NCBI GenBank assembly: GCA_014871385.1
Contig: CM026428.1
Location: 1,399,088-1,463,087, forward strand
Direction of reading: 5' to 3'
Origin: Ceratodon purpureus
Lineage: Eukaryota > Streptophyta > Bryopsida > Pseudoditrichales > Ditrichaceae
Length of the DNA: 64,000 nt
Notes under the pieces: model-generated
Told to the model about the DNA's origin: nothing
Seen by the model: only the letters and a program-made list of their open reading frames with translations
The model's database searches: none
Position numbers and translations under genes: made by a program
In this document: piece by piece, positions 11,544 through 45,931 of the stretch
Position numbering within the stretch: position 1 is the first letter of the stretch
How the letters are laid out: every line of letters begins with the position of its first letter

Positions 11544-11568
11544 GAGGCACCGAACCGTGCATCTACCC
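11544..11568 (-). repeat. Right terminal inverted repeat of the nested DNA transposon
   Basis: It is the complement of 2626-2650 with two mismatches, ends gcatctaccc and is followed by the target duplication agca. The interval 10756-11543 is AT-rich subterminal DNA without a supported gene. Confidence 0.88.
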
Positions 11569-11572
11569 AGCA

Positions 11573-14500: not shown

Positions 14501-14829
14501 TACTCAATAGCCTCATTGATAAAATGAGTCCCTTGATCACTGATTAAAGTCAGCGGACATCCATAACGGGTCAGAATCTGTTCGTACAGAAACTTGGCAG
14601 TCACTGCTGCAGTATTAGTGCGCAGGGCCTTCGCTTCCACCCATTTGGTGGCATAGTCGGTTGCCACCAAAATGTACCTATTGCCGGTCCGAGCTGCTGC
14701 TGGCTTAATGGGGCCTACAAAGTCTAGACCCCACTTCATAAAGGGCTCCGCAGGTAGGCTAGTGACCAACTGAGCCAGACCAGTGTTGGCTAAGCCGCCG
14801 ACCCGCTGGCACTTATCACATGCCCTGCA
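11573..14829 (-). CDS. Retrotransposon integrase with long C-terminal extension (frame cut by the nested transposon)
   Basis: This is the same frame as the reverse transcriptase at 16638-14830, after a TAG at 14830-14832. It starts within the integrase zinc finger ([12 protein letters not shown]). The catalytic core has Asp in GLDFVGPI, Asp in LISDQGTHF and Glu in NGQAEST, giving the D,D-35-E layout. A GPY-type module (WFGPYRVQY) follows; no chromodomain is seen. About 700 further residues follow: a Ser/Pro-rich region and a conserved-looking block ([16 protein letters not shown] to [11 protein letters not shown]). At 11568 the frame is broken by the transposon end; its continuation is at 2625-828. 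The extension's function is unknown. Confidence 0.9.
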
Positions 14830-20728: not shown

Positions 20729-21714
20729 TGACCCAACACTTGGTGTGTGGTCCGGTCAATACTAACAAGCAGTTGTACAGGGTTCCGAACAAGACTAAAG
20801 TAATTTCAGAACTATTCTGTCCCCTATTCCTATCCCCTTTTTCGCACTGAATTAATCTCTCAGAATTTACAGTCTATGGGTGATAGTGTTTAGTTACCAC
20901 TGTGATTGTCCTGGTCAAAAATTAACCTTCTGCCCAGGTTTTCACATCCATCAATTTTCCAAATCACTTTAAACCCCACCTCACACAAATTGCCTAAACC
21001 GACCCACGTCCTCAACCCGAGGTCCGCAGCCGACCCAGGTCTCAATTTCAGGTACCCAAATTCAAATTTCAAAATCTTAACAGTTTTTTAAGCATCTTTG
21101 AATCTTCGAATCTGGTGTTTTTTTGAATTTTGAATACACAATTTTTTTGTGGATTACTTACCTTTCACCCCCTTTTGTTTCAATGGATGTTCGAATGTGA
21201 CTTGAATCACCCTCTATCCCCTTTTTCGCTGTGGAACTGCCCTCAGTTCACAAGGTGGGTGTCAGCCAATTCGCTTTTCCTTCAATTGCTCACAGTACCT
21301 GCGCCCAAACAGCCTGAAGCAAGGTTAATATGCTGTTACTGTCCTTCTGAACACATACTGGAACTGCCACTGTGTCTGTACCACTGTTTTCTGCCCAGAA
21401 AACACCTGAACCCAAAACTGTCCCTCTCCCTCTCTACTACAGCAGTGTGCAGAATTCAGATATCTAGACTTGGGCTGTGTGCTTGCTAGCACGACTGCCT
21501 GCCCTTTGCAATACTGCAATGGCTCTCAACATCTGTCAGGGACTGCTTAGCACCTCGGACTCCCAGGGCAGTGGTTTCAGCACTACTACGAAACCTCTAA
21601 CAGTCAGTACTGCCTCTCTGCAGATTAAATGACTGACTCTCAGACCGCTCTAGTGTGTGGACAGCCTTCAGCAAGCAGGAGATCACATGATCCGAACTAA
21701 AGCATGGTCGCCAA
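20729..21714 (-). other. Untranslated leader of the retrotransposon, with probable primer-binding site
   Basis: About 990 bp between the 5' LTR and Gag without a supported gene. Just inside the LTR the minus strand reads ttggcgaccatgc; tggcgac fits a tRNA-primed start one base after the LTR, but I cannot name the tRNA. Confidence 0.55.
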
Positions 21715-25838: not shown

Positions 25839-25911
25839 CGCCGACCGTGGGACTCGAACCCACGACCACGTGGTTAAAAGCCACGCGCTCTACCAACTGA
25901 GCTAGGTCGGC
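25839..25911 (-). tRNA. tRNA-Lys(UUU), array copy 1
   Basis: A 73-nt cloverleaf on the minus strand. The acceptor stem GCCGACC pairs with GGTCGGC, with discriminator G. The D arm is GCTCAGTTGGTAGAGC. The anticodon stem CGTGG/CCACG holds loop CTTTTAA, with anticodon UUU at 25878-25876. The T arm contains GGTTCGAACCC. No intron. A T6 polymerase III terminator lies 25 nt downstream (25813-25808). Confidence 0.97.
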
Positions 25912-26809
25912 CTCGACCAATCACAGTGTCGCATTCCCGATCACGCCCTGATTTTTCGGAGTCACATGTTGAGAAAACCTGATTATTGTAAGAATTTATT
26001 TTGAAAACGTCAACCCAGTTATGATAAAGGGTCTCGGGCGTTTGGTGGCGCTTGATCGGGCGCATAACCTCACTACGAAGAAGGAGAGTGCACAATCTAG
26101 TCTCATGAGCTAACTCCGCTGAGTAACCACCTCCACCAGCGTCCATCTTCAAAAGTCGCAGAAGCACGCCACAGCTCCAAAGATTCTAGTGACTAGCTTC
26201 CTTGGAGTAGCACCCAACACCACATGAACAAAGATCAAACGAAGTACAGCAAGAAGAGACTGCATCCACGCTCCATGTGGAGGCGCCGTGCGGCTGCCTA
26301 AACGAGAGTGACCTCCTCCACGCACTCCGTCGCTTGAGCAAGGATCCGTCCTCCGAGACTCGATGAGACTCAACACAACTGCTGAGCGTGCTGCTAACAT
26401 AACTGGCCGTGAAATGCACTACTTCTAGTTATAGGAATCAAACTGTAATTTTAGACCTTGCATCAACAAGAGCAGGAAGGAAGTTGTACCACAAATAGAG
26501 TCAGCTATCAACTACCTAAGAAGCCGTAAAACTAGACCTTTAGCTACAAAGAGGAACATGATTAAAAGAGGAACACCCCATGTTGGAGTTGAGTGTGGCC
26601 GTTGGAGTGGAGCAGGTCGCCCCTGTTGGGTGGAGGTGCAACCCTCCCCCCGCGAGGGAGAGCCGAAGCCTTCTATCCACCAACGCGAGAGAGAGGCTAG
26701 TTTAGTACTTAGATACGATTACATTAAGATTGCAAACGTCGAAACGTGTGAAACTTAGCGCATTCAAGAATTTGCTTGAAAAAACTCTAACGGGTTGAGG
26801 GCCTATTAC

Positions 26810-26882
26810 CGCCGACCGTGGGACTCGAACCCACGACCACGTGGTTAAAAGCCACGCGCTCTACCAACTGAGCTAGGTCGGC
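26810..26882 (-). tRNA. tRNA-Lys(UUU), array copy 2
   Basis: Identical to copy 1, exactly 971 bp away, with the same T6 terminator. It lies in a type B unit. Confidence 0.97.
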
Positions 26883-27780
26883 CTCGACCAATCACAGTGT
26901 CGCATTCCCGATCACGCCCTGATTTTTCGGAGTCACATGTTGAGAAAACCTGATTATTGTAAGAATTTATTTTGAAAACGTCAACCCAGTTATGATAAAG
27001 GGTCTCGGGCGTTTGGTGGCGCTTGATCGGGCGCATAACCTCACTACGAAGAAGGAGAGTGCACAATCTAGTCTCATGAGCTAACGCCGCTGAGTAACCA
27101 CCTCCACCAGCGTCCATCTTCAAAAGTCGCAGAAGCACGCCACAGCTCCAAAGATTCTAGTGACTAGCTTCCTTGGAGTAGCACCCAACACCACATGAAC
27201 AAAGATCAAACGAAGTACAGCAAGAAGAAACTGCATCCACGCTCCATGTGGAGGCGCCGTGCGGCTGCCTAAACGAGAGTGACCTCCTCCACGCACTCCG
27301 TCGCTTGAGCAAGGATCCGTCCTCCGAGACTCGATGAGACTCAACACAACTGCTGAGCGTGCTGCTAACATAACTGGCCGTGAAATGCACTACTTCTAGT
27401 TATAGGAATCAAACTGTAATTTTAGACCTTGCATCAACAAGAGCAGGAAGGAAGTTGTACCACAAATAGAGTCAGCTATCAACTACCTAAGAAGCCGTAA
27501 AACTAGACCTTTAGCTACAAAGAGGAACATGATTAAAAGAGGAACACCCCATGTTGGAGTTGAGTGTGGCCGTTGGAGTGGAGCAGGTCGCCCCTGTTGG
27601 GTGGAGGTGCAACCCTCCCCCCGCGAGGGAGAGCCGAAGCCTTCTATCCACCAACGCGAGAGAGAGGCTAGTTTAGTACTTAGATACGATTACATTAAGA
27701 TTGCAAACGTCGAAACGTGTGAAACTTAGCGCATTCAAGAATTTGCTTGAAAAAACTCTAACGGGTTGAGGGCCTATTAC

Positions 27781-27853
27781 CGCCGACCGTGGGACTCGAA
27801 CCCACGACCACGTGGTTAAAAGCCACGCGCTCTACCAACTGAGCTAGGTCGGC
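27781..27853 (-). tRNA. tRNA-Lys(UUU), array copy 3
   Basis: Identical cloverleaf and terminator, in a type A unit. Confidence 0.97.
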
Positions 27854-28751
27854 CTCGACCAATCACAGTGTCGCATTCCCGATCACGCCCTGATTTTTCG
27901 GAGTCACATGTTGAGAAAACCTGATTATTGTAAGAATTTATTTTGAAAACGTCAACCCAGTTATGATAAAGGGTCTCGGGCGTTTGGTGGCGCTTGATCG
28001 GGCGCATAACCTCACTACGAAGAAGGAGAGTGCACAATCTAGTCTCATGAGCTAACTCCGCTGAGTAACCACCTCCACCAGCGTCCATCTTCAAAAGTCG
28101 CAGAAGCACGCCACAGCTCCAAAGATTCTAGTGACTAGCTTCCTTGGAGTAGCACCCAACACCACATGAACAAAGATCAAACGAAGTACAGCAAGAAGAG
28201 ACTGCATCCACGCTCCATGTGGAGGCGCCGTGCGGCTGCCTAAACGAGAGTGACCTCCTCCACGCACTCCGTCGCTTGAGCAAGGATCCGTCCTCCGAGA
28301 CTCGATGAGACTCAACACAACTGCTGAGCGTGCTGCTAACATAACTGGCCGTGAAATGCACTACTTCTAGTTATAGGAATCAAACTGTAATTTTAGACCT
28401 TGCATCAACAAGAGCAGGAAGGAAGTTGTACCACAAATAGAGTCAGCTATCAACTACCTAAGAAGCCGTAAAACTAGACCTTTAGCTACAAAGAGGAACA
28501 TGATTAAAAGAGGAACACCCCATGTTGGAGTTGAGTGTGGCCGTTGGAGTGGAGCAGGTCGCCCCTGTTGGGTGGAGGTGCAACCCTCCCCCCGCGAGGG
28601 AGAGCCGAAGCCTTCTATCCACCAACGCGAGAGAGAGGCTAGTTTAGTACTTAGATACGATTACATTAAGATTGCAAACGTCGAAACGTGTGAAACTTAG
28701 CGCATTCAAGAATTTGCTTGAAAAAACTCTAACGGGTTGAGGGCCTATTAC

Positions 28752-28824
28752 CGCCGACCGTGGGACTCGAACCCACGACCACGTGGTTAAAAGCCACGCG
28801 CTCTACCAACTGAGCTAGGTCGGC
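28752..28824 (-). tRNA. tRNA-Lys(UUU), array copy 4
   Basis: Identical cloverleaf and terminator, in the type B unit that the MULE splits about 540 bp upstream of the tRNA (in tRNA orientation). Confidence 0.97.
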
Positions 28825-29368
28825 CTCGACCAATCACAGTGTCGCATTCCCGATCACGCCCTGATTTTTCGGAGTCACATGTTGAGAAAACCTGATTATT
28901 GTAAGAATTTATTTTGAAAACGTCAACCCAGTTATGATAAAGGGTCTCGGGCGTTTGGTGGCGCTTGATCGGGCGCATAACCTCACTACGAAGAAGGAGA
29001 GTGCACAATCTAGTCTCATGAGCTAACGCCGCTGAGTAACCACCTCCACCAGCGTCCATCTTCAAAAGTCGCAGAAGCACGCCACAGCTCCAAAGATTCT
29101 AGTGACTAGCTTCCTTGGAGTAGCACCCAACACCACATGAACAAAGATCAAACGAAGTACAGCAAGAAGAAACTGCATCCACGCTCCATGTGGAGGCGCC
29201 GTGCGGCTGCCTAAACGAGAGTGACCTCCTCCACGCACTCCGTCGCTTGAGCAAGGATCCGTCCTCCGAGACTCGATGAGACTCAACACAACTGCTGAGC
29301 GTGCTGCTAACATAACTGGCCGTGAAATGCACTACTTCTAGTTATAGGAATCAAACTGTAATTTTAGA

Positions 29369-29584
29369 GGACGTAGCTTGTACGTGAGCGGAGAGCGCAG
29401 AGCGGAGAGCGGTGAGCGCAGATTTGGAGAGCGGAGAGCACAGAGTGGGGGACAGAACCTAAAAATAGCACTTTTTTTACTAAAAATAAAATATAAAATT
29501 AGAAGATTCGAATATTCTCAGTATATTTTTGGGAAAACACTAATTTTAGTAATTTTATTGACCCTATAACCGTGGAATAATTAC
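29369..29584 (+). repeat. Left terminal inverted repeat of the MULE
   Basis: The first about 70 bp match the right end closely from position 12 on (gtacgtgagcggagagcg, then ggagagcggtgagcgcag). An inner block (gaccctataaccgtggaa) at 29560-29577 also matches the right end. Between these blocks the sequences have diverged. The GAGAGCG motif is repeated several times. Confidence 0.85.
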
Positions 29585-29879
29585 AGTGTTTTCATTGAAT
29601 TTGTAGTTCGTTTTCTCTTTTTTTTGATGATTAATTTTTTAACGTGCACCAATTACTATGCTCCAGCTCCTTCTAACTAGTTTAGGCATAGATTAATTCC
29701 CCTTATCTCCTCAAATTTATACGCAAGTTACAGCTAAAAATGTATTGGTATTAAAGCTCTTAAGAGGGATAAAGTAACATTTAATATCGTAACACTTTCT
29801 TAACATTGTTAGAAATCATCCGCCATTGTCTACATGGTTTATTTCTTTTATTTTTCATATTAACTTCCATTACTCTATC

Positions 29880-30345
29880 TATCTTTCCTTTCCTTTAATT
29901 CTCTTTCATTTTATTTTCTCTTTCATTTTATTTTTTCTTTCATTTTATTTTTTCTTTCATTTTATTTTCTCTTTCATTTTATTTTCTTTTTCATTTTATT
30001 TTCTCTTTCATTTTATTCTCTCTTTCATTTTATTTTCTCTTTCATTTTATTTTCTCTTTCATTTTATTTTCTCTTTCATTTTATTTTCTCTTTCATTATA
30101 ATTTCTCTTTCATTTTATTTTCCTTTTCATTTTATTTTCTCTTTCATTTTATTTTGTCTTTCATTTTATTCTCTCTTTCATTTTATTGTCTCATTCATTT
30201 TATTTTCTCATTCATTTTATTTTCTCATTCATATTATTTTCTCATTCATTTTATTTTGTCTTTCATTTTATTTTCTCTTTCATTTTATTTTCTCTTTCAT
30301 TTTATTTTGTCTTTCATTTTATTTTCTCTTTCATTTTCTTAGTCG
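29880..30345 (+). repeat. 17-bp pyrimidine-rich tandem repeat in the MULE
   Basis: About 26 copies of tctctttcattttattt with single-base variants, such as tcattcatt and tgtctttc. Long open frames of Phe, Leu and Ser here are artefacts. Confidence 0.9.
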
Positions 30346-30641
30346 CCTTCATATTATTTTCAACCTTAATATTTATTTTTGCTTTTTTTCCTTTTAGCTT
30401 TTATAATTATTTTTTAATTTTTTTTATTATTTTTTAATTTTAAAAGGTAAATGACTTCTGCTCAACCCTCATCCTTTTCCATTCAGTTGAGGAAGATGCA
30501 ACTTTCAAATGAATGAATATCCGATTTTCAAGGGCGCCAAGCATCTCCTTCACGGATATTTAAGTTAGGATTATGGAATGTCTCTTCCTCTTTTCTGTTG
30601 GTGTTTTGTGAAGCTCTTTTCCGTACTGCGGGACAGCAGTT

Positions 30642-31103
30642 ATGGAAGACGTCAGAGATATTGTTGTTTCACTTGCTGACGATCTTGGTCCATTTCAACC
30701 ATATGTTGATGTCCAGGACGAAGAAGAGGTGATGGCCAGCAGCCAAGGGCGTCCTTTAACAACGGATGTTGACGTGCAACCGGATGTTAGAGCTGACCCT
30801 CCACGTTCAGAAAATTCGGATGATATCAGAGTGCAGGAGGAGGACGCAGATGTGCCTTTGCAACCTCATGCATACTCCAAGGTTGGAAAGATCCCAAGGG
30901 GAACCTATTCCAGGGAATCAGTGAATCGGAGGCGGGGAGGTGGGCCATTGCTGAAACGTTCATACCAAGGACACTTGCCAAGTGTGGGAACGAAGGTGAA
31001 CGCAAATGTAGTTTGTCCTGCAGTACAGTCAGAGGTTCGCAGCCTTGCTGATAGTGTAGTGGGCAACCCTAAACGTGTTAGGTTCGAAGATTATGACATC
31101 TAA
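30642..31103 (+). CDS. Hypothetical acidic MULE-borne protein, 153 residues
   Basis: An intact frame starting MEDVRDIVVS. The N-terminal half is acidic and probably disordered; the C-terminal half is basic (NRRRGGGPLLKRSYQ). Near the end is KRVRFEDYD, which fits the short RVxF protein phosphatase 1 docking consensus, though this could be chance. No domain is recognised. It lies between the left inverted repeat and the 3' end of the convergent transposase gene, a position typical of MULE accessory genes. Whether it is a complete gene or an exon is unclear. Confidence 0.5.
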   Translation: MEDVRDIVVSLADDLGPFQPYVDVQDEEEVMASSQGRPLTTDVDVQPDVRADPPRSENSDDIRVQEEDADVPLQPHAYSKVGKIPRGTYSRESVNRRRGGGPLLKRSYQGHLPSVGTKVNANVVCPAVQSEVRSLADSVVGNPKRVRFEDYDI

Positions 31104-31345
31104 TAACAAGTATATGTTTGCTGTAATAAAGGGTACATGTCAAGGGATACGATGTATATAGTGCACTTGTTCAAGATAGAATGTATTGAAATAGAGTGCA
31201 ATCAATGTGAACGACAAAGCCTTTATAATGAAAAAGTCAATACAGCTTCTGTATTGCTGACTCAGAACATGCGATATTACTAAAATCATTCACTACATGA
31301 TCAATGGCCAATGTGGAAATGGCAGTTCCGAAGAAGGAGTGCTAC

Positions 31346-34300
31346 CTACTTCTTCGCCAAGGGGTGACGCAAGATTCCAGTCTCTAGGAGTAGCTTGACC
31401 TCGTTAAAGCTGAAGGTAGGCGCATGGATGAAAAGCTCGGCTTCGGGATCACGGTTGCAGACCTTCAAGAGTATGTAGTAGAGGTGCTTACAATACGTGA
31501 ACTGAGTCCTGCCTTTGAACGTAGTCATCGTCTTCTTGAATGCTGGGCAAGTGCAACCAGGGTAAGAACTGATGGTAATCTGGTAACGTGTGATGTGAGG
31601 AGCGACGCCCGAATCCAGCCCAATGATGCAACCGTGGCCCGGCTCAGGTATCATGGTGACGGAACGGAGGCGCGCTTTGAGAGACTCGGAGGAGCCCATG
31701 GAGAGTCGCTGCGCCGGATTGGGACGAGTGGCAGTGCGCTTCACCATCTTGCCGTCTCTCTTGCCTGGGTAGCGGTCAGCGTCTGCAGGGACTGGCACCG
31801 AGTTGAGATTTGGAGGGGGCGGGGCAGAGGAGAAGAGGCGTCTTGGGGAGACCGGCTTTTTAGGCGGAAGTTGAAAGCCTGCTGCTTCGAGGGCAAGAAT
31901 CTCAGACAGTTTTAGATTAGTTCCTAGTTTCACTGGCCAGACCTCTGGAATGGAGGGGAATTCCTGGTCCTTTGAGTAGTGCGCTACCCACTTGCGCTTA
32001 GAGCCTTTCACGCAGCGCTCAATATCGTCGAAGCAGAAGAAGAACTCTGTCTTCTCAACAGTGTTCCTGCGATAGTTAGTCCACAGCCCAGTGTAGGTCG
32101 GTGCAGCTGTGCAAAGGGGCCCCCTGACGATTCTCTCAGTGCACTTCTTCTTCGTTTCAGCTCTCTGGGCCCAGCAGCACTTCGCAGAAAGTTTGTGAAG
32201 TCTCGAAATGTGCCACTCCTTCACGTCCACCTTGGTTTCTTCAACCGCGTTGACATGGCGAATGCCGCCCTTGTTCACAGGTGAAGGTAAAGGGGAATCA
32301 ACTTCCTGGGCAGGAGGTTGCGTACATTGTACCTCGGTGTCGTGTTCGGAGTCGTCTTCCACAATGACGGGCATCTGCATAGGGCGAGCCCTGACGGCAC
32401 GTCTTGGGCCTCTTGGGCGTGAGAAGTTTGTCTTGTCCGGGCGATGAGACTCCTCGTCAGCTCCGATGGGGACGTCGGCTTTTCGCTTCTGTGAACCGAA
32501 GACTTCCGCTCCAGGCATGATAGGCTGACGGGTGCGGAACTCATCCGCGCCTCGCATATCGAGCATGGACTTATCGAGCAGTGTAGGATTTCCCCATTTC
32601 TTGGCGTTGCGTTCAGCCATCCGGAGTCTGAGTTCCTTCTTGGACGGTCCTGTTCCGCCGACGTCACCTTTGAGGAATTGGTAGTAGTTAACAACTTGAA
32701 GAAAAGCCCGAACGAAATCGTCCACGGTAGCAACGTAGAGGTCGTTCCCGTGGTTTCCAGAAGCCTGGAGCCACTTGTTGTGAACTGTTTCGGCGAGGTT
32801 ACAGGTGGGCATCTCTGTGAGTTCTTCTTCCGTGAATTTCTGCAATTTTGACAGTAGGTGCCATTAGATTCACGGATTAGAGTTTTGTAGGTGAGGGCTA
32901 CGAAACGAGTATGAAAAACATCAAAACAGAGTTCAGAGATAATACCTCGGTCATGAATCCCCCCCATTGGCGGAAGCGGTGGTGCCAGAATGACAGCCAC
33001 TGATCGAGTTTGATGAGCCCGCTTTCGCCAACGACCCCGGTGGATGCCCACCATGCTCGCAACGCGTGGTACAGAGTTTCCGCCTCTGCCATGCTGGTCG
33101 CATTCTTGTACTGAGTGCACATCTTCTTGTGCTGTTCCCAGAGTTCTTCGGGGAAGTGCTTCTGCGTATACGCCACCATGTTCTGAGTCCAGTGGAACAA
33201 GCACGACCTCTCCCGGTCCTCCATTGGGTCCTCATTGTTCCCATTGCCGTAAAGGATTCGCACTGCATTCCAATTCGCCTGTGCGTTATCCGCCATGAAC
33301 CCCTTGAAGTTCGGCGCTGCAACGCCATTGATCTCCATGACCAGGTTCAGGTTTTTCCAGAAGACGAGCTGGGCGTCCGTGTCCTCGGACTGCATGTCGC
33401 AAGTGGCGATTGTCATCACGCGGCAGTACGTGGCGTCGTACACATGGCACGCCATGGTCGACCAGTCTTTGACGCGTTTTACATGGTCGAACATGATCCA
33501 TGCGTTCTCCAAGTCGCCACCAGCTTGCATTCGGCTGACCAAGTCGACACCACTTCCCGGCCCGACCTCCGACATCTTGAAGAGGAAGACTTTGTCACGC
33601 ATCGATCCCTGACCAGGAAACCTATTCTCCTGGACATACGCCCAGAGACTATTACCACGGAGCTTGGTGATACCGTCCATGATTCCGTACCTTTTGAATT
33701 TTTTGAAGGTGGCGACTTTGTTGCGGATGTTGGGCGACGCCATATCTTTGCATCGATCCAGAACAGGAACCAGCTCCTCCATCGTCAGCTTCCTCGGTGG
33801 TGCATCCTCGGGCTGTAGAAGGTAGCTCCCGATGAGGAGTTTGCTGGCCTCCAGGACAACGGCGCTCTTTGTTGCTTTGTTGTTCATCTCTACCTGCTCT
33901 TCTATTAAGCTACTAATCCTGCTTTAGAGTCTCTGTAGTCTCCAACTTTCACTGGATGATCATGTGTTCCTATGTGAATACAAGCTCTAGTCTGAATCGG
34001 TTTGCCCACAACGTAATAAATCTTAGCCTCGCATGTAGCTACGCATGATGGAGGTTCTTTACATACCTTGCACACTAGCGTGGAGTCAGATGGAGGAGGC
34101 TGGTCCATGAGAAAAGCTTGCAGGGTACAGCCTTCGAACTCAGTCTTGTTAACCTCGAAGATCTTGGGAACACGCTTCAGGAAGTCACACTCCTTGTTGC
34201 TGCAGCGCAGCCATCCGACGCAGATGGAACTTCGAAAAGAGAGTCCGAAGTCGTTCTTGATGTTTGTTGTGATGGTCTTGGTCCACAAGTGTCCGTCGTA

Positions 34301-35101
34301 TCGTTTGTCCATTCCTTGCATTGACTTGGCGGCGAGCTTAGAGGATTCTGCAGCAGCTGGGGGCAACTCAAAAAGAACCGGACCATCAAACTTCGCAGGC
34401 AAGTACTCTACTCTCTCGTGTCTAATAGTGGAATAGTCTATCTTCTTCAAAATGTTTTTGGACCCACGCGTCTTAGCAATCTCTTTAAGGAGCGGAACAA
34501 TGCTAACTGTGACCTGGGACAATGGAGGAGACACATTGGAAGGAGGAGCATCAGCGTGGGCCTTAGGCACCAACTTGACAGGACTGACTTCGTCATCAGA
34601 AGAGAGAGATATGACGGTCGGAGGAGGTTTCTCTACATCTGAAGTCTCGGTACCAGGCTCGACTTTGACCTTGACATCACGAGGTAAGGGAGTCTGAATT
34701 GTGCAAGTAGAAGAGCGACGGGGGGTGAGGATCTCAGTGGATGCAGCCATAAGAGAATCAGTAAGACCATAGACTCTATAGGATCCAGGGAGGAGTCTCC
34801 ACTGCAACATGTTGTTGTCATCTCTCACTGAAGGTTGCCCGAGGGTGTGGGTAACCTCCGCAGTAACGTCATCAAAGATCTCCTCCTCTATACTGATGGA
34901 ATCCTCACGGAAATGGAATCTGAGACTCAGGCGAAGAGAGGAAACTGTAGCTAGACCATCGTCATCTACGCGAAACCTAAGAGGGATGCCCATGCCTTGG
35001 GCGTACAGACAGACCATCCCCATGTTCGCAAGCAACTCAGTGATACTAGTGGAAGAAGGGAGGAAAGTGAGTGTACCAGCCAAGCGGTATCGCGAGAACA
35101 A
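31346..35101 (-). CDS. MULE transposase (DDE plus SWIM zinc finger) with one frameshift
   Basis: The minus-strand pieces are 35101-about 33920, about 33920-32946 and 32839-31346. The intron 32945-32840 has GT/AG borders and keeps phase. Piece 1 has a Ser/Pro-rich N-terminus with a SUMO-interaction-like VISLSSDDE and a Cys-rich zinc-binding region that ends HDHPVKVGDYRDSKA, a hallmark of MULE transposases. Piece 2 has the DDE core: Asp in HVYDATYCR, Asp in FMADNAQANW and the CLFHWTQNM box. Piece 3 carries the SWIM finger (CTC...CKH, 31570-31470). A one-base shift near 33920 separates KVGDYRDSKA from RISSLIEEQVE. The shift could be a mutation or programmed; otherwise the gene looks intact. Confidence 0.85.
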
Positions 35102-35649
35102 AGTGAGAGGAATGATGCATCGCTGTTGATCATTTTATTCAGTTTGGAATGTCCATGTGAATAGTTGGGGAATGATGCTGTCTGTTAGGTGACGAATGTA
35201 TGATTTAAGAGAGACGGCGCTAACTAATCACAGTGCCACTTTTTGCAGGTCTAAGTATATCAGGTCAAGAATTTTAGAACTATACTTTGACAATTTGAAT
35301 CGTGGAGCGGATTCTATCTCACATGATGTATTATAAGATTAGAAAGAGCCGTCATTTTAATTCTACATTTAAAACAATGATTATAAAAAGGAGCATGATT
35401 AAAGTGCTTGATATCAAATCTTTCAATTTAGAGTGCACTTAAATATATTCCTTATAATTAAAGTTTGATATTTTAAATAACGCTTTAATTAAAAATTGCT
35501 AATGATATTCTTAATATAAAGTGGGCAGACAATGTGTCAGTTGTTGAGATTGTAGATCAACTTAGGGTTCTAGGAGAATTGTTGTACGTAAGAAGTATTT
35601 AAGCAGGGAGAGGTTTTCATGAAAGTCTTTTTGTGAGAGAGTCCTTCCT
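35102..35649. other. Presumed divergent promoter region of the MULE
   Basis: AT-rich, without a supported gene. It separates the minus-strand transposase from the plus-strand cargo, so it probably holds both promoters. Confidence 0.45.
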
Positions 35650-36147
35650 TTGGTTAGACACATGAAGCAGAGTGGAGGGCCATCTCCCTCCACTTATGTT
35701 ACTCCTAAACAGAGAAGGAAACCTGGCCGCACTGATTTTACAAATAGAAGAGCTAGAAAGAGGAGAGCATCACGGAAGCAAGTAGATTTTAAAAGTGACC
35801 ATTTGAGTGCACCCGTGAAACGGAGAGGAGGAGATCTGCCTGTAGCTTTGAAGTTTTGTAGCCTTCGCAAACTCATTCTAGACTCTATAGTAGAGGAGAA
35901 AGAGGAATTATTAGAGAACACGGTCGTCGAGAATCACGAGCAGGAACAGGAGGTACTTTTAAGTAGAGGAGAACGTGAGGCCATGACGGAAGAATTAGTC
36001 TTTAATTGTAGTCAGAAACTAGAGTCTCCGCAACCTTCAATTGCATTCAATGAGTTCTCGACAGGGGAGCATGATTCTCAATCAGATTTTTATTTAAACC
36101 CCGACAATGTAAGTATTCATATTCTCTCTAGTACGACGGTAATGTGA
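35650..36147 (+). CDS. Hypothetical basic MULE-borne protein, up to 165 residues
   Basis: An open frame starting MVRHMKQSGG (a second ATG lies four codons on). The N-terminal 60 residues are Arg/Lys-rich with clusters such as NRRARKRRASRKQ that would suit nuclear localisation or nucleic-acid binding. The rest is acidic. No domain is recognised. It is the first plus-strand frame after the presumed divergent promoter. It could be a separate gene or a 5' exon of the cargo gene that begins at 36480. Confidence 0.45.
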   Translation: MVRHMKQSGGPSPSTYVTPKQRRKPGRTDFTNRRARKRRASRKQVDFKSDHLSAPVKRRGGDLPVALKFCSLRKLILDSIVEEKEELLENTVVENHEQEQEVLLSRGEREAMTEELVFNCSQKLESPQPSIAFNEFSTGEHDSQSDFYLNPDNVSIHILSSTTVM

Positions 36148-36479
36148 GTTATTTGTGTAATCTAGTGTTTTTGTAAAACGTTAGTAATTGAAAAGTTTGA
36201 ATAAAGAATGTGAGGTTCGTTCTAAGTCTATTTCAGAGGGGCCGCGGCAATTTACACACTCGAATCATAAGTCTCATTGAGAGGGCCGCGGCACTTGACA
36301 CACAGGAATCATGGATTTAAATGTTTGCTATTTTTACACAGAGCCCCGAGAGGATGAGAGGGGTCGGGGATCAATCTGGTGGCTTTGCTTTTGGAGAATG
36401 CACCGAGTTTGAGCACCTCCGACTCGAGGCGAGGCGAGCGCGGCTGAGCATTCTTGACGCAGGAGAGGGAGGGAGAGCA

Positions 36480-38730
36480 ATGGCTGCGCAGGGAGAAGAG
36501 AATGTTGCCGGCCCCGGCCGAGGTGATGATGAGCAGATTGCCCCAGGAGCTCAGGTCGGTGACCTTGCTGGAGGAGTGGAGGAGCTCGAGCTCGAGGTGG
36601 AGGACCAGCTGGAGAACCAGCTCGACGACCAAATCACCGACGACGAGGTAAGCAACCTGATCGTGGAGGTTGCGAGCTTGTTGGGTGACTCGCATTTTGC
36701 TTCCCTGTTCGAATGGTCGTGTTTGATGTATTTGTTGGGGTCGTGAGATTCGCTGCTGGGTTGTTGGGTTGTTGGAGGGTGTTGGGGATTCTTTGCTTCA
36801 GGAGTGTTGGGGATTCGATTGTTGGGGATTCGCAGGATTCGCTTTGGATGGTCGGGACTGCTGGAATTTTGTTGGGGAGAATTGGGATTTCAACTTCGGG
36901 TTTCGGAACTTGTTTCGTCTGTGATGTGTGTTAAGGCGTGTGTGTTGGGGATTGAGTTGGACAATGGGGATTGAGACTTAAATCTTGAGGACCACTTATG
37001 CTGCTTGCTCAGGGTGAATATTGGGTTCGTGTTTGCTGTGCGGAACTCGGATTCATTTGAGTGCTCGGATTCAAGTTGGGAGTTTGGGTACCTGGGAGTG
37101 TGGGGAACCTCATGAGTGCTTGAATGGTTGAATCTGAACCAGGCCGAGAAGGCTCTATGCCTTCCATGAGGCTCTCATTGTTTTTTTTTAATTTAATCCA
37201 ATTCGAATGAGTCGGCACCGTGTCTGCTTTCGGAGCAGACACGAGTGCCGCGGCCTCATTCAGTTTTGTTTATTTTTTTTTATTTGCTTTTTAACTTCTT
37301 TCTTTTGGTTGGATTCAAGTGGGGGTTTGGGTACCTGGGAGGGTGGGGAACCTCATGAGTGCTTGAATGGTTGAATCTGAACCAGGCCGAGAAGGCTCTA
37401 TGCCTTCCATGAGGCTCTCATTGTTTTTTTTTTAATTTAATCCAATTCGAATGAGTCGGCACCGTGTCTGCTTTCGGAGCAGACACGAGTGCCGCGGCCT
37501 CATTCAGTTTTGTTTATTTTCTTTTTTTTGCTTTTTAACTTCTTTATTTTGGTTGAATTCAAGTGGGGGTTTGGGTACCTGGGAGGGTGGGGAACCTCAT
37601 GAGTGCTTGAATGGTTGAATCTGAACCAGGCCGAGAAGGCTCTATGCCTTCCATGAGGCTCTCATTGTTTTTTTTTTAATTTAATCCAATTCGAATGAGT
37701 CGGCACCGTGTCTGCTTTCGGAGCAGACACGAGTGCCGCGGCCTCATTCAGTTTTGTTTATTTTCTTTTTTTTGCTTTTTAACTTCTTTCTTTTGGTTGG
37801 ATTCAAGTGGGGGTTTGGGTACCTGGGAGGGTGGGGAACCTCATGAGTGCTTGAATGGTTGAATCTGAACCAGGCCGAGAAGGCTCTATGCCTTCCATGA
37901 GGCTCTCATTGTTTTTTTTTTAATTTAATCCAATTCGAATGAGTCGGCACCGTGTCTGCTTTCGGAGCAGACACGAGTGCCGCGGCCTCATTCAGTTTTG
38001 TGTATTTTCTTTTTTTTGCTTTTTAACTTCTTTATTTTGCTCGCGAGAGAGAATGATTTTAATTAACGACATCGGTGCATTTTCTATGACGTATAGGATA
38101 CTTCACAGCAGAACATGGGGACCGAGAGTGAAAGCAAGGGACCTGAGGAGACCGAGGTATAGTTTTTGATGTTATATTAATTGGATACGTATGTTCTTCA
38201 TTTCCGAAATAATTGAAGTTGGGCTTCTTAAAGTTCTTTCAAATGATTTGAAAACTCTAACTTCCTCATGTGCCTTGTACTCGCAGGTAGGCTCTGATGC
38301 TCCCGACATGTCTGTCAATTCTCCAATCTCTGTCATAAACCTTTCAGACCTGTCAGCCCCAGAGGATGAGCGTCTTTGTACCTGTGATATAGCCATTCCT
38401 TTGGGTGTAGACACTGGACCTTTCGAGGTCCAGTCACCCCAGTACATGCCTACTTCGCCTGTTTATGAGCCCACCTCTCCTGTGTACATGCCCACCTCTC
38501 CAGTGTACATGCCCACCTCTCCACGTCTTGGCACACCGCCGTCTTCGCCTAATCCCCCAGTTTCACCTTTGGTGTTGAGGAGGCCAGCCCATGTAGTGTT
38601 TGCCCTTCCGGCAATACTGCCCAGCGCTTGCCGTCAGACCAGGCGATTTTGGAGGAGGCGCCATCATTGGAATAGTAGAGAGGCTAGACAGTACTATGGA
38701 AGGGCTCCTCGTAGAGTGGCACGGCCTTGA
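36480..38730 (+). CDS. MULE cargo, short form: protein ending in RNA polymerase II CTD-like heptads
   Basis: Proposed exons are 36480-36647, 38109-38156 and 38287-38730, all phase 0 with GT/AG borders, giving about 220 residues. Exon 1 is acidic (ELELEVEDQLENQLDD). Exon 3 encodes four consecutive heptads at 38443-38526 (YMPTSPV, YEPTSPV, YMPTSPV, YMPTSPR), which keep Tyr1, Pro3, Thr4, Ser5 and Pro6 of the YSPTSPS repeat. An Arg-rich tail follows, then stop TGA 38728-38730. Exon 2 could instead splice to 38870, bypassing this exon and giving the long form. The exon chain is inferred; a peptide similar to the polymerase CTD is seen directly. Confidence 0.55.
37058..38036 (+). repeat. Four tandem copies of a 244-bp unit with strong hairpins, in intron 1 of the MULE cargo
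   Basis: The gagtcggcac landmark recurs at 37209, 37453, 37697 and 37941 (period 244). Each unit has a hairpin of cggcac and gtgtctgc, loop tttcgga, then gcagacac and gtgccg. A second, smaller hairpin is gaaggc/gccttc. The flanking DNA (36648-37057) is G/T-rich intron without a supported gene. Confidence 0.9.
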
Positions 38731-38869
38731 TTCTTGGTGCTATAGATGAAATTTGAGATGTTTTTTTTTAGTCTTTCATTTATGAGAAAATCTCTATGTG
38801 ATTGGTAAATTCCATTTCTCAGTATCTACATTGTTGTGTTTGATTGTTCCTTTCCATTCCTTACGGCAG

Positions 38870-41800
38870 GTACCCGAGTTGACGCAAACACAGGACGTCT
38901 TGCCATCATCATCAAAGCCTTTGGACTTGAAAGACGCTCTTGAAGGGGAACTGCTTCATCGAACACAGCATAAAGTTGACTCCATCAACGTCATCAATGT
39001 CGTTCGTATTCAGCCCTTGAGGAAGTCTCGCCTGCTGGTCCCATTGTGTAGAATGGTCGCAATGGCAAAAGTCAGACCGGTTGGCGAAATGGGCGTGCAA
39101 CATCTGGAGAGGGAGTTCGTGAAGGGCTACAGAGATGGGGACCGCGTGATGTACATTTCCATGTTCAACACTGAAGAGGTGTCAATGGATGTCACGGAGG
39201 AAGTGAAGGCAAAGTGGAGCCCGTGCTGGCGTAGGGCTAACGAAGCCTTCGAAGCCGACCTAGGTTTAGACGATGACCTCAATCAATTCAGTGGCAAAAT
39301 GTTTTTTGTATGGGAAGGTAACCATCGCCTTTCAGCTTGGTTACGGCACATCAACAAGCATCATGCCGACGACCCAGCTTGGCACATCTCCGTGCATTGC
39401 ATCATATTGGACCCCCGCGGCCAAGTGGGCAATCTTCTCCATGCCATGCACGACATCAACTGGTAAGAATTTTGGTGGAACAATTTTTCAATTTTGATTT
39501 CGGATCATCCTTCTATTATGATGTGTTTTCTAAACTGTTTATTTTGTCCACAGGTCTACTGAGAATGACCATGTGAAGAGTAATCTTCCAGCAAAGTTAT
39601 TCCGCATCCGCTCTTTCGGTGTCATGAAGTTAGAAGAATTCAAAGATCTTCTAAGCCCCGAAGAGTTTGAAATCTGTGTGCAGAATAAACACGCAAAGGA
39701 CCGATGGTTCACCTTGACAACAAAGGTTTTCATTGCGTTCCTATACCGAGTAAGAATTTATACCATGACTCAGCAAGTACATTCGTTTGATGCATATACT
39801 TTAAGTAATGCATTTCAAGTGGTTTGTACATTGATTTTAATATAATGTATCTCCATGTACAGAGAGAGATTGCAGTCGCCTCGGATCAGGCCGCAAGAGC
39901 CTACAAGGAGAACACGCCAGTAGACGATCAATCTGGATCTGGAGTTTGGGATGCGATGACGACAGCGTCAAACAACTACATTGAGGCCGTCAAGAAGAAG
40001 GACTTCACCAAGTACTTGGCCATTGCGAATCCCAAAAATGGTGACGACTTCCTGGCCGAGGTGAATCCTTAATCACTTCATCTTAAGCTATTTTGTTCTT
40101 ATCTCCTATGATATCTTCATTTCATAATGCTAACAGTTCTGTTCTAAATGCAGATTAACCGCCACTTCAGCGATCTCAACAAACCTGAGATGACATTGGA
40201 CAAGCTGCAGAAGATTGTGCCGGCGGCTGTGGAACCCAAGTACAAAGCTCGTTGGTTGAGGTGGTGGAACTCCTCTCCGACTTCAAGGCAGTCTTATAGG
40301 TTCCCACCACCGGAGTTCAAGGAAGCTGACCTCGACCGTTGGCTAAACAGGGCTACATTCTGGGCAGGGGTATGCTCCCTTATTTCCAGAACTGATGATG
40401 TCTTTGTCATTCTATCACTTTGATTGTCGTAGACTAATTTTGCTGACTGTCTTCTGTAGTTGGAAGAAGCGGTCATCCAAGAGTTCGAAAACATGTGTAA
40501 GTCTGAGGAGCTGGACATCAATTGGAATGCCTCCCCTGATGTTCAGCGACCAGGCGATTACGTGGAGAGCTGGCGTATTCTGCTTTGGGACAGAGCATTC
40601 CCGACATTCCTTGGATCCAAGGCGAAGAAGACTTTTGATAAGAAGTCGATTTTCACGAAATTCCCTGGAACGGTAGATGTTGTCAAGCGAGTCATTTACC
40701 GGTATGAATCTTTTCTCAAACATGTGTGCATTTCGAATCCTGCATTTCGTCTCTCCCACATACTAAGTATTTTAAAATTGGCCCACAATAGGTACTTCAA
40801 GAGAGAGCTTCTTCCCAAAGGAGCCGTCACTGTCCACCAACTCCCGAAGTACTTTCCTTTATGGATCCAGAGAGGCACGGACGAGTGTATCTACTCTGCT
40901 CAGCAATTGAAGAGGTACAAAGCTCCCCACTTGGAGGCAGGATGTTGGTATCTAGATTGCCTCCTTGGTTTTACAGTCGATTCTGAGGCCGATGTCAAAT
41001 CATCACTTGATCTGCGAGCGCCAGTAGTCGGAGACTCCAACGACGGTTCTGAAGAAGACGAAGAACATCAAAGTCAATCATCTGCACCTCAACCGAAGAA
41101 AGGGAGAGCTCGGCGACTGCGAACACTTGGTTCGAAGTCACAGACCTCACAAGATACTGGGGCTGAGTCTTCCTCACCAGGGAAGGAGACGGGCAACGCT
41201 TCTCCAACTGTAGACGTCCCAATGCCAACGTCGACCACAGCGACTGCGCCTTCATCCATTGGTGCTTCTGCGATCACGCGAAGTCTCATTGAGCAGAGGA
41301 AGGCCAAACTATATCCTCAACCAACTTCTTCCGCTGGAGCTTCGATTTCCACACATGTTTCCGTCTTCAACTCATCTGTGGATTCCATGTTACGGCGTAA
41401 TAGGAGACAGGAGGTAAAAGGTGGCGACCCGGATTGGATCAAGACTCAAGACTTCATTCGCAAGGTTTGTTCCTATATTTCGACATTTAATGGATTCTGC
41501 CACCTCTACTCGTTATGTAGCTACTAACTCTCCTTTCTTGTTTCCTCAAGTTTGGAGCAGGCCGCGAAAACGAAGTTCCGGACCGGTGCAAACTAGAGAA
41601 CCATCTGGGAGTCGACTTGATCATTGCCGACATTCCTGAGAATCTTCCCGTCCCTTCCGTTTCCGTTCCTCCCACGAGTATTCCGCCTTGGAACTCTCGC
41701 TACAGGGATTATTTGTACGACATCTTCCATTTTGCAGATGATTTCCTGCAGAAAGATGGTGCCCTCTGCCTCATCTACAACACTGATCAGAAGCTGGCTA

Positions 41801-42867
41801 AGGATATCGAGGAAGAAGCTGCTGCTGGTGGATACGTGCTGTTCAAGGACTGGTGGGGTGTCAATGTACTCGGCCTGACTTCTCCAACGAACCCCGAGAA
41901 CTTGGTACTTTTCCTAAACATGCCCTTCTCTTTGCTTACTGATAACCCTTCCGCTTCATTTTACTCACTAGTTTTGCTTGAATGCAGACTATGCGATTCT
42001 GGATTCGCGTCTACGTTCGTAGTGGCAGTACTTTCTCCTTCCAGACGAAGAAGGAAGACCTGATACATGGGCTCCTCAACATTACCAAGAGTGATGCCAT
42101 TTTCAACTTCACCGATTCCGAATCTCAGCTCATGAATGGGGGGGTGCCGTGGAGAGGCCCAAGGGAGAAATCCCCTGAGATGATGCAGAGCATCATTGAG
42201 GAGCTGTCCAAGCCCGGCGACATAGTTGTTGACTGGAATGCTGGGACAGGTAACTCTTCTTACATATCTCTGCTTCATTTTTCCTCTCGTTTTTTCCAAA
42301 GTTTCTCATTTCTTTGTTTCTCTTCGAGTTTCAGGGGCCTCCATCAAGGCCGCCCAGGCTGTTGGTCGTCACATTCTCGCTTTTGAGGAGGACGAAGCCA
42401 TATTCAACGCCCTTCTCAAACCATCAGCCATGGGTCCTCCTAAACATCCAAGGCCGGCAGCAGCAGGCGAAGCGCCTCCAAAGAGACCAAGACCTGATAA
42501 GTGGTGTAAGTCTTTCATTCTTTGTTTATATTATCCAATCATTACTTCTCTTTCTAGCTCTACGTACTCTATCTAACCACAGTCGGTTCTCTATTGCAGA
42601 GTAGTTTCAGCAACACCGCCACGTGGGCCAAGAGCAGTGTCCACTCCATCGTGGCGTCTTCATTCCAGCCCGATTCAGCCTTTCATACTTCCGGACTACG
42701 CAGAGGGCTTAGCACAGGCGTTTCAATCTGGAGCCCTGACATATGTTCCAAGTCGGCCAACTACTTTTGATCCCAGGGCCCTTCTATTCGTCGATGATGA
42801 GGCGGTAGAAGGAGATTCAGAGTCATCTAGTTCTGAGAGTGGAAGTAGCGATGGTAGCATTTTCTGA
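38870..42867 (+). CDS. MULE cargo, long form: ParB-like domain fused to amino DNA methyltransferase-like domain
   Basis: Exons: 38870-39462, 39554-39749, 39863-40060, 40154-40369, 40460-40701, 40792-41464, 41551-41904, 41988-42249, 42335-42505 and 42602-42867. All introns are GT/AG and phase is kept throughout (1,056 residues; 1,128 if exons 36480-36647 and 38109-38156 are joined in front). The N-terminal domain has FFVWEGNHRLSAW, which matches the GxHRxxA box of the ParB/sulfiredoxin fold. The middle part is helical, then disordered. The C-terminal part has LIIADIPENLP in the place of methyltransferase motif IV (DPPY). It then has REKSPEMM, GDIVVDWNAGTG and GRHILAFEEDEAIF, which match the C-terminal motif-I block of bacterial N4-cytosine/N6-adenine methyltransferases. 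Motif order DPPY-before-GxG fits the beta-type permutation. Catalytic DPPY is altered to DIPE. ParB-methyltransferase fusions are known from phages and bacteria. The role here, for example marking transposon DNA, is inference. Confidence 0.75.
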
Positions 42868-43381
42868 GTTTGAAGGAGGCTTCGGTCTTTCATTGTTTTC
42901 ATTTGCTTTGATTTGATTTAATTGGAGTTCTTTGGGTAATCCTTCGTCTACTCTACTACCCTAAACCTAAACTTGTTATGATTCTCATGTCCATTTTGTC
43001 TCCGTGTTTGTAAAGGATGAAATGTCACAACTGTAATGCTCAAAATATAATATGAAGAATGAAATGTTACAAAAGAAAGGCTCAAATATAATATTGTGCT
43101 GTTAATTATATTTTACTCATTCAAAATCCCATATTTCCATAGGCATGTTATCTATTCTTGACTTGGTGTACATCTTGGTTTCTGCTACTCCATTATTCTA
43201 CACGAACTCTGAAATATTCCACGAACTTCTAAGACCATTTCTTTTAGTTGGTTTCGAGTTGTCTTATTCCTAGAATCGTCTATATTATCTAAAACCATCG
43301 TGCTGGAATACTCGTATCTAGATCCAATAAGGGACCAAATCTAAAGGATTGTATTCAAACACCCCACTAGACTTCACAGTA
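42868..43381. other. Non-coding region after the MULE cargo gene
   Basis: AT-rich 3' flank; no gene seen. It probably contains the polyadenylation region of the cargo gene. Confidence 0.5.
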
Positions 43382-43765
43382 CTAATCCTTCGAAGGATAT
43401 ACAGTCCAACTCTTGTCCATATCAAACCAGCAAGTTTCGCCATCCGATATGATCACTTCGGGCAGCTGAACAACTGGATTCTCATCGACGTTCGATAGCA
43501 AGGGATACGGGATTAGGGACAACTCCATAATACGGAGAAGCTCATTGGTACAAAGCACTGTCCAACGCCATTCACCTTCACCAACATGGAGGCTTCCGAT
43601 GTGCCTAAACGGTGGCAGGTCCATGCCTCGTTCCCTGGCGCGCTCCACCTCCAACAGCCACGGCCGCAGCTCCTCATAACTCGCCGGTGCCTTTGGGGGC
43701 AAACCTACAGCCGCTCTCGTCCTCCTGGATCTCGCATTACACACCTTCGGCATCGCGCAACACAC
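43382..43765 (-). CDS. Hypothetical MULE-borne protein, 127 residues
   Basis: A minus-strand frame with a coding-like codon pattern, starting MCCAMPKVCNARSRR. It has an Arg-rich start, a helical central part (SYEELRPWLLEVERARERG) and a C-terminal part with several Trp residues (GEWRWTVLC). No domain is recognised. It could be a small gene or a relic exon of captured DNA. No upstream exon was found in 43766-44398, which otherwise holds no gene. Confidence 0.4.
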   Translation of the reverse strand: MCCAMPKVCNARSRRTRAAVGLPPKAPASYEELRPWLLEVERARERGMDLPPFRHIGSLHVGEGEWRWTVLCTNELLRIMELSLIPYPLLSNVDENPVVQLPEVIISDGETCWFDMDKSWTVYPSKD

Positions 43766-44398
43766 TAAATTGTTGTAGTCTTAAAACGTTCCACGCAAGC
43801 CTACAGATTGACCCCCCCGAACTCCATCGCTACCTTCGCATATAGCACAGAATGCCAAGGACTGTATGACTATCCTAATACGCCACCTAGAGACAAGCTC
43901 AAGAAACCAAGAGTGACCTCCTTCTCTGGAACCCAGCTTACCAACTGTTGTTTCATGCTGAAAATCTCCTACTTCTATCACTCAAATTCAGATGCTTCGC
44001 TGCCTAGGAAGAGAGAGTAATCTTCGATGAAGACAAGGACTCTGACAAGGTATATCTTGGTTTCAGCAGTCAAGATATTATACACGAATTTTGAAATATT
44101 CCAGGAAGTTTTCAAACCTTGCCTCCTTTATGTTCTGTGAAATTTGTTTCTTTCCTTGTGCATTTACATAATCCTATGAAAGAATTAATTGTTTGATCTA
44201 AAACTCAACGCCTGATCATTGTAGCTTTCCTACACCCATGACAAATCTAAAGGACTGTATGCATGACGTCATCATGACATCAGCCCTAATTTGTATCTTA
44301 GAGAACAAACGTAATAAATTCTTACCAGAGATAACCCTAAATTCCACGGTAATATACTCTTTTTCTAAAAAAAGTGTCAAAATTAAGCCTTAATTTAG

Positions 44399-44523
44399 TA
44401 ATTTTCCACGGTTATAGGGTCTACTTTGCTTTTGAAATTTTTCCTAATTGTCAATTCTGTGCTCTCCATTCTGCGCTCACCGCTCTCCGCTCTACGCTCT
44501 CCGCTCACGTACGAACTTTCCCC
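44399..44523 (-). repeat. Right terminal inverted repeat of the MULE
   Basis: Its complement starts ggggaaagttcgtacgtgagc and runs through the same GAGAGCG-rich block as the left end. It then reaches accctataaccgtggaa after a shorter spacer than on the left. Followed by target duplication taattttaga. Confidence 0.85.
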
Positions 44524-44887
44524 TAATTTTAGACCTTGCATCAACAAGAGCAGGAAGGAAGTTGTACCACAAATAGAGTCAGCTATCAACTACCTAAGAA
44601 GCCGTAAAACTAGACCTTTAGCTACAAAGAGGAACATGATTAAAAGAGGAACACCCCATGTTGGAGTTGAGTGTGGCCGTTGGAGTGGAGCAGGTCGCCC
44701 CTGTTGGGTGGAGGTGCAACCCTCCCCCCGCGAGGGAGAGCCGAAGCCTTCTATCCACCAACGCGAGAGAGAGGCTAGTTTAGTACTTAGATACGATTAC
44801 ATTAAGATTGCAAACGTCGAAACGTGTGAAACTTAGCGCATTCAAGAATTTGCTTGAAAAAACTCTAACGGGTTGAGGGCCTATTAC

Positions 44888-44960
44888 CGCCGACCGTGGG
44901 ACTCGAACCCACGACCACGTGGTTAAAAGCCACGCGCTCTACCAACTGAGCTAGGTCGGC
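44888..44960 (-). tRNA. tRNA-Lys(UUU), array copy 5
   Basis: Identical cloverleaf and T6 terminator, in the type A unit right of the MULE. Confidence 0.97.
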
Positions 44961-45858
44961 CTCGACCAATCACAGTGTCGCATTCCCGATCACGCCCTGA
45001 TTTTTCGGAGTCACATGTTGAGAAAACCTGATTATTGTAAGAATTTATTTTGAAAACGTCAACCCAGTTATGATAAAGGGTCTCGGGCGTTTGGTGGCGC
45101 TTGATCGGGCGCATAACCTCACTACGAAGAAGGAGAGTGCACAATCTAGTCTCATGAGCTAACTCCGCTGAGTAACCACCTCCACCAGCGTCCATCTTCA
45201 AAAGTCGCAGAAGCACGCCACAGCTCCAAAGATTCTAGTGACTAGCTTCCTTGGAGTAGCACCCAACACCACATGAACAAAGATCAAACGAAGTACAGCA
45301 AGAAGAGACTGCATCCACGCTCCATGTGGAGGCGCCGTGCGGCTGCCTAAACGAGAGTGACCTCCTCCACGCACTCCGTCGCTTGAGCAAGGATCCGTCC
45401 TCCGAGACTCGATGAGACTCAACACAACTGCTGAGCGTGCTGCTAACATAACTGGCCGTGAAATGCACTACTTCTAGTTATAGGAATCAAACTGTAATTT
45501 TAGACCTTGCATCAACAAGAGCAGGAAGGAAGTTGTACCACAAATAGAGTCAGCTATCAACTACCTAAGAAGCCGTAAAACTAGACCTTTAGCTACAAAG
45601 AGGAACATGATTAAAAGAGGAACACCCCATGTTGGAGTTGAGTGTGGCCGTTGGAGTGGAGCAGGTCGCCCCTGTTGGGTGGAGGTGCAACCCTCCCCCC
45701 ACGAGGGAGAGCCGAAGCCTTCTATCCACCAACGCGAGAGAGAGGCTAGTTTAGTACTTAGATACGATTACATTAAGATTGCAAACGTCGAAACGTGTGA
45801 AACTTAGCGCATTCAAGAATTTGCTTGAAAAAACTCTAACGGGTTGAGGGCCTATTAC

Positions 45859-45931
45859 CGCCGACCGTGGGACTCGAACCCACGACCACGTGGTTAAAAG
45901 CCACGCGCTCTACCAACTGAGCTAGGTCGGC
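45859..45931 (-). tRNA. tRNA-Lys(UUU), array copy 6
   Basis: Identical cloverleaf and terminator. The unit is truncated 135 bp beyond the tRNA's 5' end, so any far-upstream control sequence is missing in this copy. Confidence 0.97.

Follow-up and report, generated by a model that had tools for sequence, protein, structure and literature searches.

Genes that join a ParB-like domain to an N4/N6 methyltransferase domain are known from algal transposons: the available text of PMC12477816 describes such a gene in the Ectocarpus element Sola1-1_Ec32, cites earlier cases from green algae (Iyer 2011) and red algae (Petroll 2025), and suggests that the Ectocarpus protein marks the DNA of its own element. 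In phages, N6_N4 methyltransferase domains are among the frequent fusion partners of ParB-fold proteins (PMC12704722, in its available part). VANC21, an accessory protein of a Mutator-like element (MULE), binds motif repeats in the noncoding DNA of its own element, and both diverge between families (PMC5735166, in its available part). Here, a 64,000-nucleotide stretch of the moss Ceratodon purpureus (contig CM026428.1, positions 1,399,088 to 1,463,087; the window) was analysed. It contains a complete MULE insertion of 15,156 bp (29368-44523), which carries a gene for a ParB-methyltransferase fusion protein. With the VANC21 work as the model for self-targeting, this protein may be a self-directed, VANC-like regulator that would bind a palindrome array of its own element, within a large C. 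purpureus MULE family; on sequence and analogy, this reading is held with a little less than even confidence.

As in Sola1-1_Ec32, a single two-domain protein of ~1,100 residues is encoded on the strand opposite the transposase of a large DNA transposon, and two features of the algal proteins (both domains in one transposon protein, strand opposite the transposase) were thereby found; compared by the domains and layout given in the available text of PMC12477816, the two differ in that the moss element is a MULE, not a Sola1 element, and in host lineage. The locus shares with VANC of the Arabidopsis VANDAL MULEs an accessory gene and noncoding tandem repeats with short motifs that vary among relatives; the action of VANC has been shown experimentally, whereas the moss system is known here from sequence alone, and the VANC motifs, unlike the moss palindromes (dyads), are short and are not described as palindromes in the available part of PMC5735166. 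The ParB fold, the PF01555 fusion and the dyad sites recall ParB/parS and the phage ParB-N6_N4 fusions (available part of PMC12704722). A beta-class amino-methyltransferase fold in a eukaryote is also seen in N4CMT of bdelloid rotifers (PDB 8s9m). The moss protein differs from ParB/parS systems in its GNHR variant box and its plant transposon setting. The parS site is a palindrome; to our knowledge, VANC has neither a ParB nor a methyltransferase domain, and the bdelloid N4CMT is not a transposon gene and has no ParB-like domain.

The initial annotation had presented the pairing as undescribed in a plant MULE. The ParB-like/methyltransferase pairing and the idea of self-marking are already in print (PMC12477816, available text); new within the literature searched are a MULE of a land plant as the carrier, the change in motif IV and the rows of palindromes upstream of the gene. 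Among the top-ranked, mostly non-subscription papers, no moss or land-plant transposon with both domains was found, nor any array of palindromes linked to a ParB-like gene of a transposon.

The fusion gene was read on the forward strand, divergent from the transposase, as a chain of ten exons (38870-42867) with GT donors, AG acceptors and consistent phases. A proposed first exon (38115-38156, +), inferred from phase and common to two alternative products, adds an in-phase ATG, and the spliced product is stop-free (1069 aa). The chain comprises the ParB/sulfiredoxin-fold exon with the GNHR box (38870-39462, +; fold prediction and alignment), a middle region (39554-41464, +; exons 39554-39749, 39863-40060, 40154-40369, 40460-40701 and 40792-41464, from the spliced chain and copies), a methyltransferase exon that includes the position of motif IV (41551-41904, +; copy and CcrM alignments), two methyltransferase exons with motif I (41988-42505, +; 41988-42249 and 42335-42505) and a C-terminal tail exon with the stop (42605-42867, +; spliced chain). 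Exons 2-11 were each matched in nine of ten fetched copies; the match to the tenth, c13a, stops inside exon 7. At least 150 genomic copies have the ParB box, 40 of which (window copy counted) are identical across its 55 residues.

The ratio dN/dS (NG86) was available for 19 of the 55 pairs, and dS frequently exceeded 1; in comparisons with dS > 0.5 it was 0.06-0.13 for the ParB exon, 0.09-0.15 for the middle region and 0.23-0.43 for the methyltransferase exons; the gene is under purifying selection. A C. purpureus protein annotated independently (P0001, 1147 aa) is collinear with the window protein at 32% identity. A chance exon chain was ruled out by the stop-free splicing, the conservation among copies, the dN/dS values and the collinear P0001, and the phase-consistent chain of the initial annotation was borne out.

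The second product would join the first exon to an alternative second exon (38287-38730, +; splice reading and copies) that encodes a small protein with YxPTSPx heptads, like those of the RNA polymerase II C-terminal domain, and a basic end. This exon was matched in 10/10 fetched copies, with dN/dS 0.08-0.20 in the same comparisons; PF05001 scored under its cut-off (E 0.0083, 16.8 bits against 20.3).

The N-terminal part of the fusion protein is predicted to adopt a ParB/sulfiredoxin fold and the C-terminal part, modelled on a related copy, a beta-class DNA amino-methyltransferase fold; fold matches were obtained for both, as the initial annotation had anticipated. The GxxR phosphate-binding box reads GNHR in 13/13 aligned sequences. 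Profile searches agreed with the annotation in part: PF01555 matched the window protein at 33.6 bits (cut-off 26.7), and ParB_N (PF02195) had no match in the window protein or the genome, so that a partition protein recognisable through PF02195 was rejected. A search of PHROGs returned DNA methyltransferase families and one weak match of unknown function (E 0.55).

The motifs named in the initial annotation, FFVWEGNHRLSAW, GDIVVDWNAGTG and GRHILAFEEDEA, are present; the position assigned to DPPY reads ADIPEN. Motif IV precedes motif I, the beta-class order (CcrM alignment). The pattern expected of a catalytic motif IV is [DNS]PP[YFW]. The window family instead has D[I/V]PE at this position, within D[I/V]PEN; the distant L039/L040 family reads DVPED and the remote copy of c3a DLIEN. 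Sister genes carry DQPY (L029), DQPF (L030-L033, L038) or DTPF (L036, L037), likewise without the first proline; in L034 and L035 this stretch lay outside what was displayed. Motif I is DWNAGTG in the window and EWSAGTG in c8a and c1b (final G from the next exon, outside the alignment), the phenylalanine being lost in the window family; sisters have DLNASTG, DLSASTG and similar. Because ENLPVP/EDLPVP is retained between families whose exons share 33% identity, the motif IV region suggests a maintained altered site, not decay. The probable role of the methyltransferase fold in the window family is to read or hold DNA instead of methylating it, or to work by altered chemistry.

These motifs also bear on the possibility that the protein is an active DNA methyltransferase (N4C or N6A) and marks its own element, aimed by the ParB-like part, as the Ectocarpus authors propose for their protein in the available text of PMC12477816. 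The PF01555 score, the predicted beta-class fold, the retained aspartate and one proline of motif IV, and the DQPY, DQPF or DTPF of the sister families are in its favour. Since the aromatic residue of DPPY has no counterpart in D[I/V]PE, motif I is without its phenylalanine and the methyltransferase exons are under weaker constraint than the ParB exon, we consider such an enzyme unlikely. With motifs IV and I so changed, the proposal in the initial annotation that the transposon brings its own DNA-marking enzyme is unproven.

The sister genes (L029-L038, L041-L044) encode ParB-methyltransferase proteins with DQPY/DQPF/DTPF or DVPED; L030, L031 and L038 are apparent close copies on different chromosomes and are perhaps mobile too. 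No palindrome array was found in the stretch fetched for four sister genes. In protein-database searches, the window protein returned nothing at E <= 0.01, and the true relative P0001 was missed; a sister protein returned two C. purpureus proteins, and an alignment query one of those two, the sister-gene matches being M758_1G295400 and KC19_7G101700. These searches depend on shared 5-residue words and are hence uninformative on absence from other plants.

The putative MULE-type transposase of the element (31346-35134, reverse strand) was read from motifs read by eye and from copies, in three open reading frame (ORF) pieces: 31346-32863, 32898-33923 and 33905-35134. Its CxxHxxxN and SWIM-like CxC..CxH motifs are presumably MULE transposase/SWIM features. 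No Pfam family matched, joined pieces included; one sub-threshold DUF hit was obtained. The frame is broken between the last two pieces (33905-33923; 341-aa piece), and by manual count a single open frame of 724-753 aa is present in about 103 of the best 118 transposase copies; the window copy may lack the capacity for a full transposase.

Linkage between the two genes was scored among the best 118 of 2248 transposase candidates and the best 150 of 1696 ParB candidates. At least 35 of these 150 ParB copies have one of these transposases 5.8-19 kb upstream in divergent orientation, and the three other arrangements gave 0, 1 and 1 cases; random placement of copies produced a mean of 0.55 linked pairs and a maximum of 4. 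The transposase was present in 6/10 fetched copies. Repeated linkage to the transposase was thereby obtained; the annotation had named repeated linkage to MULE ends as support. Its term "cargo" does not hold: purifying selection and the transposase linkage mark the gene as a conserved resident of a large family. A single capture or Pack-MULE cargo was ruled out by the many copies and the transposase linkage. One contig, C6, whose 110.5 Mb would fit the sex chromosome of C. purpureus, has 54 of the best 150 ParB copies but just 12 of the best 118 transposase copies, as might be expected of older or more frequently incomplete copies.

Between the transposase and the ParB-methyltransferase gene, just upstream of the latter, repeat analysis identified a tandem array of four 244-bp units (37067-38039, +), each with one dyad. 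The dyad CGTGTCTGC-TTTCGGA-GCAGACACG lies at 37219-37243 and is identical at 37463-37487, 37707-37731 and 37951-37975; these four window matches all fall inside the array. The window copy was compared with 10 long fetches and 10 short ones of 801 bp; these 21 copies yielded 18 arrays, 7 of them from the short fetches. Unit lengths are 117-361 bp, with 15/18 at 200-255 bp (c11a taken at its shortest period, 128), and arrays reach 34 units of 213 bp. A significant dyad, reached by at most 8/200 shuffles, was found in 14/18 units.

The dyads fall into two types, counted with up to 7 substitutions permitted. Type I, GGTGTCTGC-TTTCGGA-GCAGACACC and variants, has 5 distinct sequences at 75 sites, spread over 10 elements, and type II occurs, as CCTACTGTCG-TCAA-CGACAGTAGG and variants, at 81 sites in 8 elements (25 distinct; the c1c sites are degenerate). 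In type I units the dyad columns are almost invariant, conservation drops to about half after the dyad, and partial conservation is seen in a T tract and a short stretch preceding it. In 362 Mb, 304 occurrences of the exact type I 25-mer were counted (reversed control: 0). Among the matches listed (100 sites, C1 and part of C2) there are 7 arrays, and each is followed on the same strand, 1.3-1.9 kb downstream of its end, by a ParB box; C1 and C2 carry 29 listed ParB copies.

Compared with the type I 25-mer, the window dyad has both partners of one pair swapped, and the palindrome is preserved. Non-paired departures at the ten inner pairs comprised 2 G-U against 40 others in type II (25 distinct sites) and 1 against 5 in type I (5 distinct sites). 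Because pairing departures are seldom G-U, the comparison favours dyads that act as DNA rather than RNA.

In the proposed mechanism, the protein would bind the array palindromes as a dimer, via its ParB-like part or the middle region, and would accumulate at its own element, in the way that ParB gathers at parS or VANC at its motif repeats. Bound protein might then counter host silencing or control the two divergent promoters, while the methyltransferase fold would read or hold DNA, or work by an altered chemistry. More tentatively, the element could represent a eukaryotic transposon with a ParB-parS-like module, in which cognate palindromes beside the gene would make copies self-recognisable, array and gene would pass between elements together, as one cassette within which self-recognition evolves as a whole, and the methyltransferase fold would have been rebuilt (D[I/V]PE) to a non-standard role; we regard this fuller scheme as possible, with the doubt outweighing the confidence.

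The protein could instead be a DNA-binding transposition helper, MURB-like in role, and the array would then serve inside the element as a site of transposition assembly or as an enhancer of transposition. A second gene that is divergent from and linked to the transposase, and an array within the element, would fit such a helper; however, c8a combines a window-like transposase with an array and ParB gene of the other type, so that array type goes with the ParB gene and not with the transposase, and the dyads are absent from the terminal repeats. A helper function is therefore judged improbable. That the array has nothing to do with the ParB-like protein and acts at the RNA level or through a host factor (hairpin transcripts, promoter repeats), to which the TTCGG-type loop of type I dyads and a second small hairpin with the T tract (by eye) could point, is quite improbable given the scarcity of G-U departures and the lack of any Rfam match across 36100-38900, by which a known RNA family was also rejected.

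Several observations weigh against a self-directed regulator that reads the arrays. Linkage was counted in the best-scoring candidates, and the transposase was not found in the fetched stretch of c3a, c4a, c1c and c13a. Three of the ten short stretches (L045, L046 and L052) have no array in their 801 bp, though L045 and L046 contain one dyad each. The units of c11a, c1c, c4a and c13a (4/18) have no significant dyad, and the 14 significant units are not independent, as they represent two dyad types and are homologous within type. The dN/dS values cover a minority of pairs, often at high dS. The short alternative exon is interrupted in c1c by a stop and in c11a by a frame break, and stops also occur in c3a exon 9 and in the second c4a copy.

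If the protein reads the arrays, it would be a second, unrelated MULE solution to the problem of VANC, that of a transposon finding and de-silencing only itself, and a bacterial-style ParB-fold module would be at work on plant chromatin. ParB-methyltransferase transposon proteins, so far described in algae, are here extended to a land plant and to a further transposon superfamily, a wider distribution that raises the question of one ancient module. As the element is abundant in a moss, binding, methylation and silencing are directly testable; gene targeting is possible in C. purpureus.

The boundaries of the MULE were established from the empty site, as the element is inserted within a 971-bp tandem repeat. 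The joined flanks, counting a 9-bp target site duplication (left copy 29359-29367, right copy 44524-44532), equal three intact adjoining units at 120/120 bases; with duplications of 7, 8, 10, 11 or 12 bp, only 71-83/120 bases agree. The left terminal inverted repeat (29368-29422, +; core 29375-29422) pairs with the right one (44470-44523, -; core 44470-44517) over 48 nt at 94% complementarity. A target duplication of ~9 bp and terminal inverted repeats, two marks of a MULE, are thus present, in agreement with the inverted ends proposed initially. In 9/10 fetched copies, similarity to the window runs as far as 44523 or 44524; in c11a it ends at 44496. One copy, c13a (L025/L026), is an internally deleted derivative: both ends, orfL, the array and ParB exons are kept, and the transposase and exons 8-11 are gone.

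Three further ORFs lie within the element. The small orfL (30642-31103, +; 153 aa) has 82-90% amino acid identity in c11a and c13a, with one stop near the end in each, a pN/pS of 0.46-0.56 (three comparisons) and no matching Pfam family. The conserved orfM (35623-36147, +) has 64-92% amino acid identity in 7/10 fetched copies. The small orfR (43382-43780, -) is 95-100% identical in 8/10 fetched copies; because orfR and the 3' end are near-identical between elements that are strongly diverged elsewhere, the 3' ends were probably exchanged recently.

The 971-bp tandem repeats lie on both sides of the insertion (25839-28824 and 44888-45931) and carry one tRNA-Lys (TTT) gene per unit. Elsewhere in the window, a 642-aa ORF (7013-8941, -) is transposase-like by eye, with no Pfam family above cut-off, and long ORFs at 11563-20755 (-) resemble a Ty3/gypsy-type retroelement, on the basis of motifs of integrase, reverse transcriptase and zinc knuckle recognised by eye.
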